Assembly (NCBI GenBank): GCA_022565355.1
Contig: JAIUMU010000002.1
Coordinates: forward strand, 496,001 to 560,000
Reading direction: 5' to 3'
DNA: 64,000 nt
Source: Idiomarina sp.
GTDB taxonomy: Bacteria > Pseudomonadota > Gammaproteobacteria > Enterobacterales > Alteromonadaceae
Position 1 is the stretch's first letter, and the number at the start of each line of letters is the position of its first letter. A model generated the notes under the pieces. That model saw only the letters and a list, made by a program, of their open reading frames with translations. It had not been told where the DNA came from and made no database searches. The translations under genes were made by a program, and so were the position numbers. This document shows, piece after piece, positions 55,973 to 64,000 of the stretch.

Positions 55973-55989
55973 TCATTTATAGCTACACA

Positions 55990-56036
55990 TTTGTAACTAC
56001 AGAGGTGTAACTAAAGATGTGTAACTACATAGCTAA
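55990..56036. repeat. 14-bp tandem repeat after the 51-codon ORF
   Basis: The motif tgtaacta recurs at 55992, 56006 and 56020 (14-base period) with a degenerate fourth copy twelve bases on. On the minus strand each unit carries TAGTTA, so stop codons recur after the ORF, as in the repeat after macB. Confidence 0.6.
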
Positions 56037-56192
56037 CTACTCGCTATCGTAACAGCCGTATTTAAAACGGAAGGATACGTAAAATTTACCGCCTCGACTT
56101 GGTGAACGGATGGATGCATGCCCTAGGGCCTTTGATTTTAAAGAGCTCACGTCAAAGTAGCACAACTCGGTCTCCTCAGCTATATTTACCAT
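56037..56192 (-). CDS. Unknown 51-residue ORF, possible recombinase remnant
   Basis: This ORF is too short for the track. It starts ATG-GTA-AAT at 56192 and ends in TAG at 56037. The middle reads ASIRSPSRGGKFYVSFRFKYG. This faintly resembles the N-terminal arm-type DNA-binding segment of some phage integrases, where a 'GK.Y..FR..G' pattern is common, but the match is weak. A repeat and an intrinsic terminator on the same strand follow it, consistent with a real transcript. It sits exactly where the sequence turns A+T-rich. It may equally be a functional small protein. Confidence 0.35.
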   Translation of the reverse strand: MVNIAEETELCYFDVSSLKSKALGHASIRSPSRGGKFYVSFRFKYGCYDSE

Positions 56193-56388
56193 TTTAGATT
56201 TTCAGTAAAAATAATGCAGTTATCACTATAAAATAGACGGTTGATTCGGCTTATATTTACATTTTTAATCAAACAGCTTAGCAAGAACTGACTAGACTCT
56301 CGTTAATCCCCTAGAAATCCTTTGCAGCGTTTATGCTGTTCCTTTCCTCATCATTTACCGATAATACCTACCCTTGCACTGCAAAAGA

Positions 56389-57132
56389 TCACCAATATTG
56401 CTCGATGATTTTAAACACCCAAAGGATTTTAGTCGAGAATACAACTTTAGATCCTTCATTATATTCAATCAATATTGAGTCTAAATAAATAGAATCGGGG
56501 CTTTCTAAGTTTGTAATATACCAAACCCCAGACCCACTTTTACCCTTTGGCTTAACTGGCGTATTTTTTTGTACATTATTTCCATATGAGAGGCATGTGT
56601 GTTTGAGTAACGACTTCCCATGCTTTACAAATAAAGCTTCATCATAAAAGAACTTTCCAGCATAAGCATAGGCACTTATAGCTTTTTTTAATCTGATTCT
56701 TGGATATTTGTTTCTAGACAACGGGTAACCATGAGTGAACCCATACGCCACATTCTCCACAAAGTCCCAAGGAAGCGCAATTCCTGATTTAACGACATTT
56801 AACCCGTTTTTTTGGACGAATTCACTACTTAGATGAACAATTCCAATGTCTAAGTTGTCGTCTTCCCCTTCGGTAATAACCCATTGTCCCGATAAACTAA
56901 CAAGACCACTCTTCGTAAATAGCATTATCCCTTGTTTAACTCTATTAACTGCTCTAATGACATGACCAGCAGTAACAAAGTACGATTTAGATTTGTACTC
57001 AATAATGACAGAGCTTCCTAACAGTTTAGGTTCGCTTCGACTTTCTGAGGTAAAAACTGCGTAAGTGTATTTGTCGGCATATCGCTGTGATACTTCTAAA
57101 GCATTCAGTATCGCTTGGCTAGAAAAATCCAT
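56389..57132 (-). CDS. Trypsin-like serine protease, coupled to a nuclease gene
   Basis: The 247-residue protein carries a chymotrypsin-fold triad: His57 in YFVTAGHVI, Asp95 in DNLDIGIVHL and Ser199 in GKSGSGVWY. There is no signal peptide or membrane segment, so it should act in the cytoplasm, which is unusual for this fold in bacteria and common among phage-defence effectors. Its ATG shares one base with the stop of the upstream nuclease-like gene (TAATG), implying co-translation. The last 35 residues are hydrophobic/aromatic. The 196 bases downstream to the 51-codon ORF contain no feature I can name. Substrate unknown. Confidence 0.72.
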   Translation of the reverse strand: MDFSSQAILNALEVSQRYADKYTYAVFTSESRSEPKLLGSSVIIEYKSKSYFVTAGHVIRAVNRVKQGIMLFTKSGLVSLSGQWVITEGEDDNLDIGIVHLSSEFVQKNGLNVVKSGIALPWDFVENVAYGFTHGYPLSRNKYPRIRLKKAISAYAYAGKFFYDEALFVKHGKSLLKHTCLSYGNNVQKNTPVKPKGKSGSGVWYITNLESPDSIYLDSILIEYNEGSKVVFSTKILWVFKIIEQYW

Positions 57133-58325
57133 TACAGTACATTAACCTCTGGCTCAGCTAACAAGTAAGGCTTGAGGCGCAGAAAAACTAGCTTCTCGGA
57201 TAGGTTATCTTTGTATGAAAAGTAAACGATATTAACTCCATTCTCTTTACTCTTAAGGAGTTTATCTTTATCCCGCGACTTAGCCTTTTTCAATCCCTCG
57301 TCCCCACCAAATAGGCCAATGGGTTTGAAGTGTTGCTCTCCCTGATATTCGATAGCCAAACATAATTCTGGTATGTATACATCAAAGCGCTGCCTATTTA
57401 ACCAAGGAGGAGAGGCTTCGCGCTGGATATTAAACTTAGGGAAAAGTACCTCGATATAATTGAATAGAAGAGTTTCATTGACCCACTTTTCACCAATTTT
57501 AGCGACCCCCTTCATACCTCTCACCTTGTTTTCTGCATCCCGCTCATCCAAACCCTCTGATATTTCAAATTTGCGGATGTAAGCTCCGTAACGAACTTTA
57601 AATGCAGAACCATACATTTTGTGACAAAAGGTCAAATCAGAGTTAGTACCTTTGCACAGGTGGCAAATACCTTTTTTATAGTTTTCGTTTTGTAAAGCAT
57701 ATTGAATATGAGGATGAGTAGAAGCCAGATTTCCTCTTGAGCGCCCAGCTTTTGTGACTGCGTCTTTGAAGCAATCACAAAAATAACTTTCTCCAGTAAC
57801 TTTATTATAGAATGTCTGCCTCCACTCCCATACTCCCAGTCTCGATGGTTGAAGCTCTAATTTGACCATCTTGAGTAAAGCTCTCAACTTCGAAAGAAGT
57901 TTTGGAGAAAAATGAATCGCACCAAGACTTACAAGAACACGATTTTTCGTTTTCAACTGAAATGTTTTAGTTTTAAAAGTAGATGGCTCATCTGAATAGG
58001 GATAAAAAGGGCTAACAAGGATAAATTTGGGTAACTTAAAACTTTTCACATCGAGCGAAGTATCGAGGGTACTGCTCATATCAAACTGAGCATAACGAAT
58101 TTCCAAGCCATTGTTTTGAATATATTCATTCAGAGATAGTTCTTTTGCAGAGTAGTGAGAAGTGAAAGTTGACTTGAATGATGACAGAGTTAAACCGACT
58201 GGATGTCTGATGAATTCACAGAGTGCTTCAAACAAACTATCTGGAATAGATAATCTCTCGGACATTATTTTCTTCTGGCAGCTAAGAAGAAAATCCTCCT
58301 CCGAAAACTCAAAAGCCAGTTCCAT
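57132..58325 (-). CDS. Probable PD-(D/E)XK-type nuclease with zinc-type cysteines
   Basis: The C-terminal quarter of this 397-residue protein has a homing-endonuclease-like PD-(D/E)XK core: Asp315 in RFDVYIPE, Glu326-x-Gln328 in LAIEYQGEQHF, then SRDKDKLLKSKENGVNIVYF, the usual helix-strand ending with basic residues. Cysteines CDC (183-185) and CHLC (221-224) may bind zinc. The N-terminal half (1-170) is not recognised and may be a sensor or target-binding part. It is the first gene of a two-gene operon with the serine protease. About 280 bases of non-track sequence upstream hold its promoter and a possible 34-codon ORF on the other strand. Codon use is A+T-rich compared with the core genes. 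Confidence 0.65.
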   Translation of the reverse strand: MELAFEFSEEDFLLSCQKKIMSERLSIPDSLFEALCEFIRHPVGLTLSSFKSTFTSHYSAKELSLNEYIQNNGLEIRYAQFDMSSTLDTSLDVKSFKLPKFILVSPFYPYSDEPSTFKTKTFQLKTKNRVLVSLGAIHFSPKLLSKLRALLKMVKLELQPSRLGVWEWRQTFYNKVTGESYFCDCFKDAVTKAGRSRGNLASTHPHIQYALQNENYKKGICHLCKGTNSDLTFCHKMYGSAFKVRYGAYIRKFEISEGLDERDAENKVRGMKGVAKIGEKWVNETLLFNYIEVLFPKFNIQREASPPWLNRQRFDVYIPELCLAIEYQGEQHFKPIGLFGGDEGLKKAKSRDKDKLLKSKENGVNIVYFSYKDNLSEKLVFLRLKPYLLAEPEVNVL

Positions 58326-58404
58326 TTTGATAACACTCCAGTAGGCAGCCTTGGTCGCTTCATAGTGACATAGTTATTCTAGCGAACTAGTTGGAGGCTC
58401 CATC

Positions 58405-58509
58405 ATGCACCATTTGGCCTCTAGGTTACAACATAACAAGAAAACCATAACGAAGCTTCAAGCATTCAGAACGCCGGGAGTTACCATCCCGATGGTACAG
58501 CAAGTCTAG
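58405..58509 (+). CDS. Possible 34-residue small protein
   Basis: This short ORF, below the track limit, has an excellent ribosome site (GGAGG, seven bases before the ATG) and begins MHHLASRLQHNKKTITKL. It is basic. There is no homology I can name, and chance cannot be excluded. The rest of this intergenic stretch (58326-58604) holds a short perfect palindrome TACCATC-CC-GATGGTA (58482-58497, inside this ORF) and a TATACT hexamer at 58538. Confidence 0.3.
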   Translation: MHHLASRLQHNKKTITKLQAFRTPGVTIPMVQQV

Positions 58510-58604
58510 CCCTCTGGGTATTCTGCTCTCACCAAGCTATACTCTAATTGTTTGAGATACCGCATGCTGATGCGCTGTGAACGGAGACTTAAAGGAGAAG
58601 CCTT

Positions 58605-58835
58605 GTGGCAAATCAACTTGACGTGCTAGCGTTGGCAGAAGAAGTAAAACGCGATTGTGAATCAGGAGCGCTGTACCAAGACCTACTATCTCAAGGACAA
58701 ACGCTATATGGTAAAAATCCAACTTATCCAGATCACATCGAGCGCATCACTCCTGATGGGAAGAGGACGCTTGGCTATTGGCATCATGGTCAGTTTGTTG
58801 AAGACTTTTGCCTTCTATTGAACAGAGTACTTTAA
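58605..58835 (+). CDS. Unknown 76-residue protein
   Basis: The gene starts with GTG and has a good ribosome site (AAAGGAG, eight bases upstream). The product is acidic at its N-terminus (LALAEEVKRDCESG) and contains DGKRTLGYWHHGQF toward the end. I do not recognise the family. It ends ten bases before the next small gene, so the two probably form an operon; the size pair (76 and 93 residues) and the defence-island setting would suit a toxin-antitoxin or accessory pair, without direct evidence. Confidence 0.6.
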   Translation: MANQLDVLALAEEVKRDCESGALYQDLLSQGQTLYGKNPTYPDHIERITPDGKRTLGYWHHGQFVEDFCLLLNRVL

Positions 58836-58845
58836 GGTATCGCTA

Positions 58846-59127
58846 ATGCCCTATTGCCACACGGTTTTTCACGTAACTTCCCCTGAACAAATCGAAAATG
58901 TGCTATCGACTCTTACGAGAGAAAGTTTTGTGAGAGGCAAAGCAGCTTATCACCTTGCGAACGACGTTTATTCTATTGATGCTGGTGAGAATGATATCCG
59001 CGCCATTTACGATAAAGAAAAAGAGGTCATTAGATTTTTCTGTCGTTATCAGCGAGACATAGCTTTTTACGAGAAAAAGCTCCAAACCTTTGCTATAAAA
59101 AACAATATCGATATAAGACCTCAATAG
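58846..59127 (+). CDS. Unknown 93-residue protein
   Basis: This is a small protein of mixed charge, with VFHVTSPEQIENVLSTL near the start and a basic, aromatic C-terminal half (IRFFCRYQRDIAFYEKKL). No catalytic motif, membrane segment or signal peptide is seen, and I do not recognise a family. It follows the 76-residue gene at ten bases and is followed by the 43-bp repeat array about 50 bases after its stop. Confidence 0.55.
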   Translation: MPYCHTVFHVTSPEQIENVLSTLTRESFVRGKAAYHLANDVYSIDAGENDIRAIYDKEKEVIRFFCRYQRDIAFYEKKLQTFAIKNNIDIRPQ

Positions 59128-59176
59128 GGCGAAATACGACCATACCTTCAAACTTCTTTCTTCAAAAGCTGCTGTG

Positions 59177-59485
59177 GTGCAATCCCGTGCGCTGAGTCGA
59201 TTGTTCGGATAACTCACAGGCGCAACACCGTGCGATCAATCGATTGTTCGGATAACTCACAGGTACAACACCGTGCGATCAATCGATTGTTCGGATAACT
59301 CACAGGTACAACACCGTGCGATTAACCAATTGTTCGGATAACTCACAGGTACAACACCGTGCGATTAACCAATTGTTCGGATAACTCACAGGTGCAACAC
59401 CGTGCGATTAACCGATTGTTCGGATAACTCACAGGTGCAACACCGTGCGATTAACCGATTGTTCGGATAACTCACAGGTGCAACT
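59177..59485 (+). repeat. 43-bp tandem repeat array (six full units plus partial ends)
   Basis: The invariant 20-mer ttgttcggataactcacagg starts at 59201, 59244, 59287, 59330, 59373, 59416 and 59459, always 43 bases apart. The other 23 bases vary at only a few positions, and neighbours share variants (units 1-2, 3-4 and 5-6 group together), showing local duplication. A degenerate half unit precedes and a truncated one ends the array. The period is not a multiple of three and stops occur, so it is not a coding repeat. Later units can fold as CCGA-TTGT-TCGG and GGTG-CAA-CACC hairpins. Confidence 0.92.
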
Positions 59486-59596
59486 TTATGCTTTGAGCAG
59501 GGATATTTAACCGTCAGTGGTTTCTCTTTGACTTGAACATAGACTAATGCATATGTGTCAAATTGATAGAACCTAAATTAGTTGCTTCAAAACGAG

Positions 59597-59620
59597 AAAA
59601 GCCACCCGAAGGTGGCTTTT
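59597..59620 (+). terminator. Intrinsic terminator upstream of the HEPN-SIR2-HerA operon
   Basis: AAAAGCCACC and GGTGGCTTTT form a ten-base stem with a CGAA loop; T and A runs make it work on either strand. It separates the repeat array from the Abi gene. The stretches 59486-59596 and 59621-59734 otherwise show no gene; the latter presumably holds the operon promoter and a small CCTCA...TGAGG inverted repeat. Confidence 0.85.
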
Positions 59621-59734
59621 CCGTAGAACTTTTTCGCATGAGACCTCAATCTAAATGAGGCTACTCCGCCTTTATGTATTGTAGTCTAGACATGTTATTA
59701 TCCGAAGTCAACAACTTGAAAGCAGGGAAAGCAA

Positions 59735-60751
59735 TTGAAGTACATATCATCCAGTAGATTATCAGTTTACGAGCACCATCTTAAAGTTAAACACGATGAA
59801 GTGCTAGCGGCTTATCATTGGAACAAAGCTCTGTGTGCTGCGCTTTTCCCTGTTATCCAATGCTTGGAGGTTACATTGCGAAACGCTATTGATTGCGCAA
59901 TACGAGAAAACCCTCCCAAAGCGGCTAAAGGTCAATATAGTACTGGACCAGACTGGATCTTTTCCTTCACTGAGTACATGGGAAATAGAACACTTCCTAA
60001 TCACAAAAGATACACAAAAAACGCACGTCCCAAACAACCCGTGGACAAACAAGGCTACGTGCTGGCCTCCAACAAGACACGACTAATTACAAACTATCTA
60101 TGGGAGGAGAAGAAAGTTGTTGATGCAAGCAAAAAGCTAAAAAGAGTTGGTAAATCTGTTACACCAAACAATGTGATCTCTGTTATGGATTTCGGCTTCT
60201 GGACGAATTTTCTCTCTATCACATATGAAGACATTAGTTCGCAAATGCTGCTTTGGCCTAACCAGCTCAAAACAGTCTTCCCTAATGCTCCGGTCGGAAT
60301 CACTAGATCTGACATAGAAAAAATTTTTTTATCCATCAAAGAGTTGCGAAATAGATTAACTCATCACGAGGCTATCTGGAAGTTCTTTTATGATAACCCG
60401 GTTACTGGAATGCCTGATTACTCGAAACCCGTTTATGGTGCGAAAGCCAGTTGCTCACTTTTATTAAAGCATTACGAGGATATCCTAGAAGCTATTAAGT
60501 GGATGAGTAAGGATAGGTTAGCTAGATTTCTTGAACACCATGGTGACGCACGTTTTAGAGCCTTATGTAGCCTTGATGGGCTTCATAGTTTCATCTCTCC
60601 AGAGAAAATCACTTGTACTCATCCTATTAATAAAGGAGGGTGGGGAGTTAGAAAACTTCTAAACCAGTTAGAGAACGGGGAACCTGTGAGAATCACACGT
60701 AATGGGAAAACTGTTTATACATTGGCAAAAGATTTTCATAGAAGCTTCTAA
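59735..60751 (+). CDS. Abi_2-type HEPN protein with a Phd-like C-terminal segment
   Basis: The start is TTG with AGGGAAA a few bases upstream. The 338-residue protein has the Abi_2 (AbiD/AbiF) pattern: FPVIQCLEVTLRNAID in the first helical block, and the HEPN ribonuclease signature R-x4-H as Arg205...His210 in ELRNRLTHHEAIW. Such proteins cut RNA in abortive infection. Residues about 304-331 (GVRKLLNQLENGEPVRITRN, then GKTVYTLA) read like the core of Phd/YefM antitoxins, an odd addition. It lies 44 bases before the SIR2 gene on the same strand, so it is probably in one operon with SIR2 and HerA. Confidence 0.75.
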   Translation: MKYISSSRLSVYEHHLKVKHDEVLAAYHWNKALCAALFPVIQCLEVTLRNAIDCAIRENPPKAAKGQYSTGPDWIFSFTEYMGNRTLPNHKRYTKNARPKQPVDKQGYVLASNKTRLITNYLWEEKKVVDASKKLKRVGKSVTPNNVISVMDFGFWTNFLSITYEDISSQMLLWPNQLKTVFPNAPVGITRSDIEKIFLSIKELRNRLTHHEAIWKFFYDNPVTGMPDYSKPVYGAKASCSLLLKHYEDILEAIKWMSKDRLARFLEHHGDARFRALCSLDGLHSFISPEKITCTHPINKGGWGVRKLLNQLENGEPVRITRNGKTVYTLAKDFHRSF

Positions 60752-60795
60752 ACGTGCTAGTAGCGATTTAAAATTTTTTAAAGGGAGTTGATGCT

Positions 60796-62064
60796 ATGAG
60801 TGAAGATAAACAACTTGCGAAGGACTGTCTAATATTTAAACAAGGACAGGATAGTTTGCTTGGTGATAATGAGAGTCTTGAAGATGGTATCGAGAAGATC
60901 AGAAGCAAACTATCAGATCTAGCAAATATTAAAAATCTTCACTTTTTAATGGGCGCCGGAGCTAGTTCAGGTGCTATACCGACTATGGCTAGACTTATCA
61001 ATATAGTGGAAGCGAGAGTTGAGGGGCAGGAAACAGCGAACGATTTGGCATCACACCCTGATGACCTGATACATGATGAAGTGAAAGCACGATTCAAATC
61101 TGTTAAAGATGTCTCTCCAAACAATTTAGAAGACATACTTGGCACTCTCTATTCAAAGCGTGAGTATTCAAAAGGAATTAACGAGAAAGACAGCCTGAAT
61201 GACTTTCTTATAGAGTTAATTGAGTCTCAAATCTATTCATCTATCAACATTGACTGCACAACCGCTGAAGATTCACTAAGTTTATACAAAAAACTTTACC
61301 AGAAGTTGGCATTGCGAAATAGAGATCTCGCGAGAGTCAACGTATTCACCACTAACAACGACTTACTCAGCGAGACAGCATTAGGCTATCTTAATATCAA
61401 CTACAACAACGGTTTTAGTAGTGGTCTGTCTCGTACATTTAATCCTGCGCGTTTTTCTTACACATTTTCACGCAAGATTGATCCAAGTGTCGAAAAGTAT
61501 GAGCCTCTAGAGAATATGGTTTATCTTTACAAGCTTCACGGATCGATTAGTTGGATAGAATCAGATGACAACTCATTTTTTAACATCAAAGAGGTCGATG
61601 TAGTTCCTAATCAGCCAGCAAAATACAATAATGTACTTATCTACCCGACGCCGCTGAAACAAAATAAAAGCTTAGGTTCTCCTTATGCGGATCTAATTAG
61701 AGAGTTTCAAAACAAGCTCTTACTCCAACATGGTGTGTTAATAGTTATCGGTTATAGCTTTAGCGATGAACATATAAACAATGCGATTTATTCAGCTCTT
61801 GCGTCTAATTCAAGCCTTAGCGTGGTTATCTTTGGTAACTATTACCCTACTGAAAATCTTACGAAACTGACTGACAGGCGGATTTATCAGATCTCAGGGG
61901 AAATTGATGTTCCTGCTAAAACGGGCACAGCATCCTCAAAGGAAAATATTCACTACTTCAACTATATAGTAAATAACTTTATTCCTGATTTAGATCGCAG
62001 CAAAGATGTTGAAATACTTGAGGAGTTCATTAATTCTCTGAAGTCATTAAAGGGTGCAAAATGA
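60796..62064 (+). CDS. SIR2-family NADase of a SIR2-HerA defence pair
   Basis: The 422-residue protein has a defence-type SIR2 fold: nucleotide loop LMGAGASSGAIPTM (53-66), VFTTNNDLL with the catalytic-type Asn187, KLHGSISW with His248, and VIGYSFSDEHINNAI. SIR2 effectors of anti-phage systems deplete NAD+ on infection. AAGGGAG nine bases before the ATG is a good ribosome site. The stop overlaps the herA start (ATGA), which fits the known SIR2-HerA pair, where the two proteins form one large complex. Confidence 0.9.
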   Translation: MSEDKQLAKDCLIFKQGQDSLLGDNESLEDGIEKIRSKLSDLANIKNLHFLMGAGASSGAIPTMARLINIVEARVEGQETANDLASHPDDLIHDEVKARFKSVKDVSPNNLEDILGTLYSKREYSKGINEKDSLNDFLIELIESQIYSSINIDCTTAEDSLSLYKKLYQKLALRNRDLARVNVFTTNNDLLSETALGYLNINYNNGFSSGLSRTFNPARFSYTFSRKIDPSVEKYEPLENMVYLYKLHGSISWIESDDNSFFNIKEVDVVPNQPAKYNNVLIYPTPLKQNKSLGSPYADLIREFQNKLLLQHGVLIVIGYSFSDEHINNAIYSALASNSSLSVVIFGNYYPTENLTKLTDRRIYQISGEIDVPAKTGTASSKENIHYFNYIVNNFIPDLDRSKDVEILEEFINSLKSLKGAK

Positions 62065-64000
62065 GGATCGGGAAAATCACTTCAGTAAATTTTAACCAGT
62101 TTAGAGTGAAAATATCTTCAGAGATAAGAGGAAACTCTGTCAATGTTTCTGGTACTGTGTATTACTTCGGTAATATCGGAAGTTATTTAAAGACAGTTAA
62201 TTCAGTAGGTGAGCATTTAATTTGTGAAGTTATGTCAATTTTTGATAGCGATAACAGTTTAGGCTCAGCTGCTTATGATTTTGACAGTAATCGTGAACTA
62301 CTCTTGAAGCCTATAGGTACAATCACGAGAGATAATAGATTTAACCTTGGAGTTGGTATCTTCCCCGGAATATATAGTGAAGTAACCGTCGTCACTTTCG
62401 ATGATATGGAACTAATTCTTCATACCGGGAAAGATAAAGAGCTAAGCAAAACGATTCACCAAAGCTTTTTCCTCGGTGAGAGTAAAAACCTAATTAACTA
62501 CCCGATTAATATTTCGATAAACTCGTTTTTTAATATTCATTCGGCGGTGCTTGGCAACTCTGGTAGTGGAAAATCAAATACGATAGCTCATATCATCCAA
62601 GAAATTCACAAGAAAAAAGATAACTCTGCTATTGGTTCGCGAATACTAATTTTTGACGTCAACGGCGAATATAAAAATGCTTTTACAGGACACGAGATCA
62701 GCCCGTTTCTAAAGGTAAGGTTATTAAAACCAAATATTGAGACAGTTGAAGACGGCGTAGAACCATTTTACCTTCCGCACTTTCTTATGAATATTGACGA
62801 ATGGAGTTCGTTCCTAATGGCTACGGATGCCACCCAGCGGCCCTTCTGGGATAAGGTGCTTCAGGAAAGTTATAAGTTTTATATGATCGCGACCCATGAG
62901 GGAGCTAGCAGACAAAAGCTAATAAACTACCTTAGATTTAAGATCTGTAATCTAATCCACATACTGCAAGCACAAGGCGACAGTGATACGGCAATTATTA
63001 CTACCGCACAAGGAATAATTTATGGATTTTTAACGCTTATACAAATGGATACGAATCTTCACCGCGCATGTAATCAAGAGGGAGTGTTAAAGGATATAGA
63101 AGACTTGTATGCGAGTTGCACCATTAATTATGGTAGAAATGAAGGCAAGTTAATGAGTGCGGTACAGTTAGTTGAAAACAAGATTAATAACAATTCTCTG
63201 CGAGAAGTTATAGACTATAGAGCATCTGGCGAAGAGTATTTCGACTACCGATTTTTGAAGCAGGCAGCGAATCTTACCTTATTAGAAGAGGATGCTAGAG
63301 GTAATGGTCGGATAAGAGAATACACGTCTACGATGATGACACGATTAGATTTTTTCTTGGACAACCCCGATTGTGCTTTCATGAGACAGTCGCCCAACGG
63401 AACGACAAATATTGACCAGTACCTTGATTGGTTATGGCAGCCTAATAGCATAGTGCCATTACAAACTAACATGCTGATTATCGACACTAGCGAGCTATCA
63501 AAGGATGCATTAGAAACATTAACCTCTGTAACCTCAAGGCTTAACTTTACGTCAAGAAGGAAACTCAAAGGCTCAGCAAGGCGAGAGAAGCCAATACATC
63601 TAGTGCTAGATGAGGCTCATCGCTATATCAAGAAGGATTCAAAGTATTTACTTCGTGAAAATATATTCGAGCAGATTGCCCGTGAGGGCAGAAAGTACGC
63701 ATTGTACTTATTGGTATCATCGCAACGCCCCTCAGAATTGTCTGAAACTGTTTTATCGCAATGCTCAAACTTCATAGTCCATCGAATACAAAATGAAGTA
63801 GATATGAAGTACGTATACGCCATTCTTCCTTACTTTTCAGATGATTTTGCTAACAAAATCAAGCAATCTGTTCCCGGAGAAGCTCTAATATTTGGTAACT
63901 GTGTTTCAATGCCACTTCATGTGCGAGTAAAACAAGCGTCCCCTGAACCTAATAGTGAGAACTGCAAAGTTCATGAAGAATGGTTTAAGCCATTTCCGCC
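62061..64000 (+). CDS. HerA-like hexameric ATPase, partner of SIR2 (partial, runs off window)
   Basis: The track omits this gene because it has no stop before 64000; 646 codons are open. The N-terminal beta-barrel (HAS type, about 1-120) precedes Walker A GNSGSGKSNT (from residue 165), Walker B HLVLDEAHRYI (Asp517-Glu518), then IAREGRKYALYLLVSSQRP and SELSETVLSQCSNFIVHR, the FtsK/HerA signature of DUF87 ATPases. HerA proteins form hexameric rings that act on DNA ends. With the SIR2 gene overlapping at ATGA, this is the second subunit of a SIR2-HerA anti-phage system. The length suggests that only a short C-terminal tail is missing. Confidence 0.9.
   Translation, partial: MRIGKITSVNFNQFRVKISSEIRGNSVNVSGTVYYFGNIGSYLKTVNSVGEHLICEVMSIFDSDNSLGSAAYDFDSNRELLLKPIGTITRDNRFNLGVGIFPGIYSEVTVVTFDDMELILHTGKDKELSKTIHQSFFLGESKNLINYPINISINSFFNIHSAVLGNSGSGKSNTIAHIIQEIHKKKDNSAIGSRILIFDVNGEYKNAFTGHEISPFLKVRLLKPNIETVEDGVEPFYLPHFLMNIDEWSSFLMATDATQRPFWDKVLQESYKFYMIATHEGASRQKLINYLRFKICNLIHILQAQGDSDTAIITTAQGIIYGFLTLIQMDTNLHRACNQEGVLKDIEDLYASCTINYGRNEGKLMSAVQLVENKINNNSLREVIDYRASGEEYFDYRFLKQAANLTLLEEDARGNGRIREYTSTMMTRLDFFLDNPDCAFMRQSPNGTTNIDQYLDWLWQPNSIVPLQTNMLIIDTSELSKDALETLTSVTSRLNFTSRRKLKGSARREKPIHLVLDEAHRYIKKDSKYLLRENIFEQIAREGRKYALYLLVSSQRPSELSETVLSQCSNFIVHRIQNEVDMKYVYAILPYFSDDFANKIKQSVPGEALIFGNCVSMPLHVRVKQASPEPNSENCKVHEEWFKPFP

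Follow-up and report, generated by a model that had tools for sequence, protein, structure and literature searches.

The sopC locus of plasmid F has 43-bp repeats, and in both sopC and iteron arrays, units of about 43 bp follow one another directly in tandem, all in one orientation, with a fixed core and a spacing of whole helical turns. The BOX elements of pneumococcus are dispersed intergenic elements with a variable number of tandem boxB units of ~45 bp. In type III toxin-antitoxin (ToxI) systems and with the AbiF ncRNA (PMC12373285), a gene for an abortive-infection RNase is preceded by tandem repeats, from which a terminator-like hairpin separates it. A further system is the GInt, or Genomic Island with three Integrases. 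As described in the passages on GInts in PMC5385486, these islands comprise the ginABCD operon and cargo, are inserted site-specifically (many of them at the end of ssb, leaving its product unaltered), excise as circles and carry short imperfect direct att repeats of 10-17 nt at both ends. According to the same passages, GinC is without some recombinase features and GinD without any domain, and the acquisition of foreign DNA by Gin integrases is a feasible role but one without evidence.

The array described here is located in a 64,000-nt stretch of the genome of an Idiomarina species (hereafter the window), and it shares with sopC and iteron arrays the tandem layout, fixed core, single orientation and helical spacing. 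It differs from them in being located in a chromosomal island, with no partition or replication gene identified next to it, and in having a core that is no clear palindrome in most loci. Like BOX elements, it has relatives that are dispersed and intergenic with a variable number of tandem units; unlike BOX, these arrays are low in copy and island-limited, and no conserved end modules were found around them. Its island has the four-gene recombinase operon, the insertion at the end of ssb and the variable cargo on the opposite side of the GInts described in PMC5385486, whose passages on GInts describe no internal 42-43-bp array, unlike the island in the window. Neither a limited literature search, short of a full review, nor a keyword search of the GInt paper turned up an account of an array like this one. 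Dispersed phased repeat arrays in general are not new.

The array in the window has a period of 43, 7.2 copies, 95% matches, no indels and a score of 506 in Tandem Repeats Finder, by far outscoring the other four arrays in the window (at most 97). The 20-mer TTGTTCGGATAACTCACAGG is present in exactly seven copies (at 59201, 59244, 59287, 59330, 59373, 59416 and 59459), which bears out the seven invariant 20-mers at an exact 43-base period reported in the preliminary description. By pattern search with up to one mismatch allowed, no further copy occurs in the 2.72-Mb genome. Unit 3 has the same sequence as unit 4, and unit 5 the same as unit 6; units 1 and 2 are two bases apart. The variants that neighbouring units have in common point to recent growth by unit duplication. 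Thus, the window array has recently been expanded and homogenised to seven units by unit duplication, and the recent expansion claimed earlier holds for the window copy only. As the entire 43-bp unit repeats with a 95% match, the array does not have the unrelated spacers of a CRISPR array. The small hairpins noted earlier are real to the extent that each window unit contains an imperfect inverted repeat, GTGcGATTAaCCGA..TCGGaTAAcTCAC, and that the array folds more stably than its shuffles (z -2.2 on the + strand, -5.2 on the - strand). However, the related arrays have no consistent RNA structure, with z between +0.5 and -1.9 for most pieces and -2.2 / -2.6 for one 60-base piece. Rfam gave no match beyond sub-threshold mir-994 hits, which were judged spurious.

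The array had been placed between two small genes and a HEPN-SIR2-HerA operon within a defence island. This setting is right and can be made more precise. A recombinase operon lies just past the window (window coordinates 64181-69589) and adjoins the 3' end of ssb. Its products are of 447, 535, 683 and 146 aa, of which the 447-aa protein matches Phage_integrase (1.1e-12) and the 535-aa protein NF041502 (557 bits). The 683- and 146-aa proteins have no Pfam match and are homologous, in order, to genes of an island on another contig of the same genome, C10; position and size, with no domain match, suggest the third recombinase for the former and GinD for the latter. In five relatives (G002, G008, G014, G017, G018) ssb is followed directly by gabD, which indicates that ~13.7 kb has been inserted here; the ssb of the host genome still ends in ...DDDIPF despite the insertion. 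With a three-recombinase and GinD operon at one island end and a site-specific insertion at ssb, the defence island of the window is, on sequence comparison, cargo carried by a GInt whose insertion site is the 3' end of ssb (Table 1). The ssb end and ~56,063 have an 8-nt stretch, TAAAACGG, in common, embedded in a longer imperfect match; so short a match is not significant alone. Short 14-bp repeats (CTACACATGTGTAA, 3.4 copies, 55983-56029) also lie between gabD and the cargo, right at the left island end, and are possible sites of recombinase binding there. Many relatives of the NF041502 protein (L156-L171) are located near low-complexity, Q/G-rich coding repeats resembling the ssb linker, and insertion beside ssb thus seems to be the rule for this type of recombinase.

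Table 1. Features of the array and its island in the window coordinates
Feature	Position	Strand	Remarks
GInt-type island, window part	56063..64000	.	left end approximate; island runs to ~69,756 (end of ssb)
P3, 76 aa	58605..58835	+	no Pfam, NCBIfam or PADLOC family
P4, 93 aa	58846..59127	+	no known family; conserved SIDAGENDIRAIYD...FFCR; frequently paired with P3
43-bp tandem array	59176..59484	+	seven full cores and a decayed half-unit at the left edge; Tandem Repeats Finder, pattern search
First invariant 20-mer core	59201..59220	+	homologous cores at other loci
Last invariant 20-mer core	59459..59478	+	pattern search
Abi gene leader	59599..59675	+	terminator-like hairpin and GAGACCTC..GAGGC element; part of the Abi unit, not of the array
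Abi_2 / PD-T4-5-like HEPN protein	59735..60751	+	Pfam Abi_2 6.5e-10; PADLOC PD-T4-5 1.7e-24
SIR2 of SIR2-HerA defence pair	60796..62064	+	family searches
HerA ATPase	62061..64000	+	extends ~19 bases beyond the window end

The exact window array is absent from the 60 relatives searched, and its 20-mer has no match in 398 other family genomes or in the genome and virus collections. Searches of IMG/VR with the exact and the degenerate core, of E. coli genomes with the region from P3 to the array, of plasmids with two of the other arrays and of phages with one of them were also without a match. Within the host genome, the 11-mer TAACTCACAGG is confined to the window array and one site beside a P3 gene on contig C10. 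There, at C10:1080-1566, six diverged cores flank the P3 homologue, one just upstream of its start codon and more right after its end. A sequence-only model of the array units, run over 199 family genomes, found clusters in four, including new ones in G109, Idiomarina rhizosphaerae (G192) and I. ramblicola (G226). Five related loci are known in all: the window, C10 and these three. G109 is an Alteromonas-type genome, and its array locus matches Alteromonas macleodii plasmids at 99.8% over 870 bp. A degenerate core pattern searched in 84,980 species gave true arrays in two Idiomarina only, together with eight unrelated single matches, about the number expected by chance (our estimate, 8.6). Single pattern matches in G157, G158 and G075 were rejected as likely chance matches inside coding DNA. 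The window array aligns with that of I. rhizosphaerae over 109 bp, more than one unit (67%, E 2.6e-10), and with that of G109 over 88 columns (67%, E 2.3e-5). Judged by these alignments, the repeat is not a private minisatellite: it is common to different genera and not a local stutter. The earlier proposals had been set against a random expansion with no conservation in relatives; what the search of the host genome and its relatives found instead was that islands elsewhere, including those of other genera, carry diverged arrays with this core and period.

P3 homologues are present in 23 of 249 family genomes and P4 homologues in 13 of 150. P3 adjoins three of the five arrays (window, C10 and G109) and was not detected in the genomes of I. 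rhizosphaerae and I. ramblicola. Most P3/P4 loci are without an array, and together with the two arrays without P3 this led to the rejection, as a general rule, of an operator obligatorily tied to P3/P4. The structure model of P4 has a pLDDT of 85; a fold search of the P3 and P4 models against the PDB gave no significant match, whether to a DNA-binding fold or to any other. The P3/P4 family has several copies per genome (in the host, C2:316725-317292, C8:57309-57578 and C10:1126-1314), and in Alteromonadaceae it is often found near defence genes (SIR2-like, hsdR-like). Two further cargo genes on the - strand have no assigned family: the product of 57132-58325 resembles, by eye, a PD-(D/E)XK or Vsr-like nuclease (...RFDVYIPELCLAIEYQGEQHF...), and that of 56389-57132 has a weak match to LmuA (6e-4).

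A core of ~20 bp, TTAATCRRATAACTCACAGGT, is common to all five loci, with the cores mostly 42-43 bp apart. Between loci the core is 76% identical, whereas the ~22-bp spacers reach 46% against 44% for shuffled spacers, in a comparison of the four loci with usable full units that somewhat favours the core, as the loci were found by the core and the core matrix was built from them. The core-to-core distances are 43 bp (six times) in the window, 42 (twice), 31, 84 and 262 bp on C10, 42 bp in G109, 42 bp (twice) in I. rhizosphaerae and 127 bp in I. ramblicola. Every one of them is within 1 bp of a whole number of 10.5-bp helical turns; 84 and 127 are near multiples of 42 and perhaps reflect lost units, and the helical-phase argument leans mainly on 31, 42 and 262. 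Cores within one array all have the same orientation. This integral-turn phasing of the cores is suggestive. A conserved core, a free spacer and a constant helical spacing, which together are the signature of spaced (putative) binding sites, are thus all present in a small sample of five loci. With the core conserved, the spacer free and the RNA structure inconsistent, DNA binding sites fit better than RNA.

We tentatively favour, at somewhat less than even confidence, a helically phased row of putative binding sites for a protein probably encoded by the island, a row that has recently been expanded here. Each site would be an asymmetric, cis-acting core of ~20 bp on the GInt cargo, separated by a spacer of ~22 bp that is free in sequence but fixed in length. 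Neighbouring sites, about four helical turns (42-43 bp) apart, would lie on the same face of the DNA and allow cooperative binding. The restriction of TAACTCACAGG to the window array and the C10 site suggests that the sites are island-specific, and, as the core occurs nowhere else in the host genome, the gene for the putative binder probably belongs to the islands and not to the host chromosome. A plausible role would be local control, by silencing or looping, of the adjacent small genes or of the island, perhaps as an operator or silencer; the placement of the C10 cores around P3 is as expected for operator sites. Counting against binding sites, no protein gene common to the flanks of all five arrays was found, most P3/P4 loci have no array, the P3 and P4 models have no significant match to a DNA-binding fold, and five loci are few. 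Protein binding, the identity of the binder and its purpose are what we infer. Of the four options listed in the preliminary description, a protein-binding array is the best supported, by the conserved core, free spacer sequence and fixed spacing. A structured RNA has lost ground through its inconsistent structure, and so has a recombination site, given the position of the array 3 kb inside the island and its absence from 19 regions with related recombinases.

The main rival is a dispersed, non-functional or selfish minisatellite that would hitchhike with islands, with recombination copying and homogenising it; we consider this unlikely but serious. The recent unit duplications in the window are in line with it, as are the unrelated neighbouring genes among the loci and the patchy distribution, with clusters in 4 of 199 family genomes and two true array loci among 84,980 species by one degenerate pattern. 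Neutral drift, however, should erode core and spacer alike, yet core identity is well above the random level of the spacers and the spacer length is kept. Another explanation is a landing or exchange site at which defence cassettes are stacked, akin to integron-like cargo exchange. All five loci are within ~9 kb of multi-recombinase operons: the C10 array adjoins an operon homologous to that of the window island, beside uvrD, and the arrays of G109, I. rhizosphaerae and I. ramblicola are near other sets of tyrosine recombinases. Moreover, arrays are located at junctions between cargo modules, and that of I. rhizosphaerae abuts a truncated UvrD-like gene fragment. Such a site is nevertheless improbable, since the window array is away from the island ends (near 56,063 and at the 3' end of ssb), homology between the recombinases next to different arrays is detectable only for C2 versus C10, and neither the core nor a comparable intergenic array was found in any of 19 other regions around relatives of the second recombinase (~349 kb, or 367 kb when an additional part of the I. 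rhizosphaerae region is counted), nor in 19 control regions. This absence, which also speaks for the minisatellite, suggests that the array is optional cargo and not the recombinases' own site. A GInt att or recombinase recognition site was rejected, as the island ends are without the core and 0 of the 19 other regions have it. That the array acts like sopC or iterons, in partition or replication, and so stabilises the circular form of the island after excision is very improbable: the period and tandem layout resemble known centromere arrays and GInts excise as circles according to the GInt passages of PMC5385486, but neither ParA/ParB nor Rep genes were identified in its vicinity and related islands are without it.

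It is also quite improbable that the array acts as a structured or processed RNA, such as a type III or AbiF-like repeat antitoxin of the downstream HEPN (Abi_2) toxin. This reading draws on the order of tandem repeats, terminator-like hairpin and Abi_2 HEPN gene, which recalls ToxI and AbiF, and on the inverted repeats and folding of the window units. Unlike in those systems, the Abi gene has a separate conserved leader of its own, ACGAGAAAAGCCACC..GGTGGCTTTTCCG followed by GAGACCTC..GAGGCGACTCCGCCTTGATG, which is ~80% identical in 261 plasmid records. On plasmids of Klebsiella, Citrobacter, Enterobacter, Yersinia and Pantoea it precedes Abi homologues; on those of Serratia and Vibrio vulnificus, where it occurs as well, the leader alone was compared. 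No array precedes any of the aligned leaders, so that, as far as this comparison tells, the array is not the antitoxin RNA of the HEPN protein. The arrays elsewhere are not linked to a common toxin gene and have no consistent RNA structure, and Rfam gave only sub-threshold miRNA hits. A repeat RNA and toxin kept as a pair, as in ToxIN, are thus not found here: Abi homologues occur without the array, and the other arrays without a common toxin gene. A type III antitoxin for the HEPN gene was rejected, as the conserved intergenic part is this separate leader and the homologues lack the array. The leader itself may be an ncRNA controlling the HEPN protein. It has no match in Rfam at E<=5; it is comparable to AbiF RNA (RF03085), yet not matched by that model.

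Beyond the phased binding sites favoured above, the arrays might represent a new class that moves among the multi-recombinase islands of marine gammaproteobacteria and serves these islands, either as a joining site for defence cassettes or as a nucleoprotein site, akin to a centromere or silencer, to which a new family of small island proteins binds; we regard this as rather improbable. If the array is a functional site, it would help to approach a poorly understood matter, namely how anti-phage cargo is kept, controlled or assembled by multi-recombinase islands. Even if it is non-functional, the HEPN-SIR2-HerA set of the window can now be assigned to a named mobile element whose insertion site is known. 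Two minor observations concern the other Idiomarina islands. A truncated UvrD/RecD2-like 3' fragment (L132:9293-9520) directly adjoins the I. rhizosphaerae array. Additionally, both array-bearing Idiomarina islands contain related small genes that are ParD-like by eye (L132:11629-11844, - strand; L133:9114-9347, + strand).
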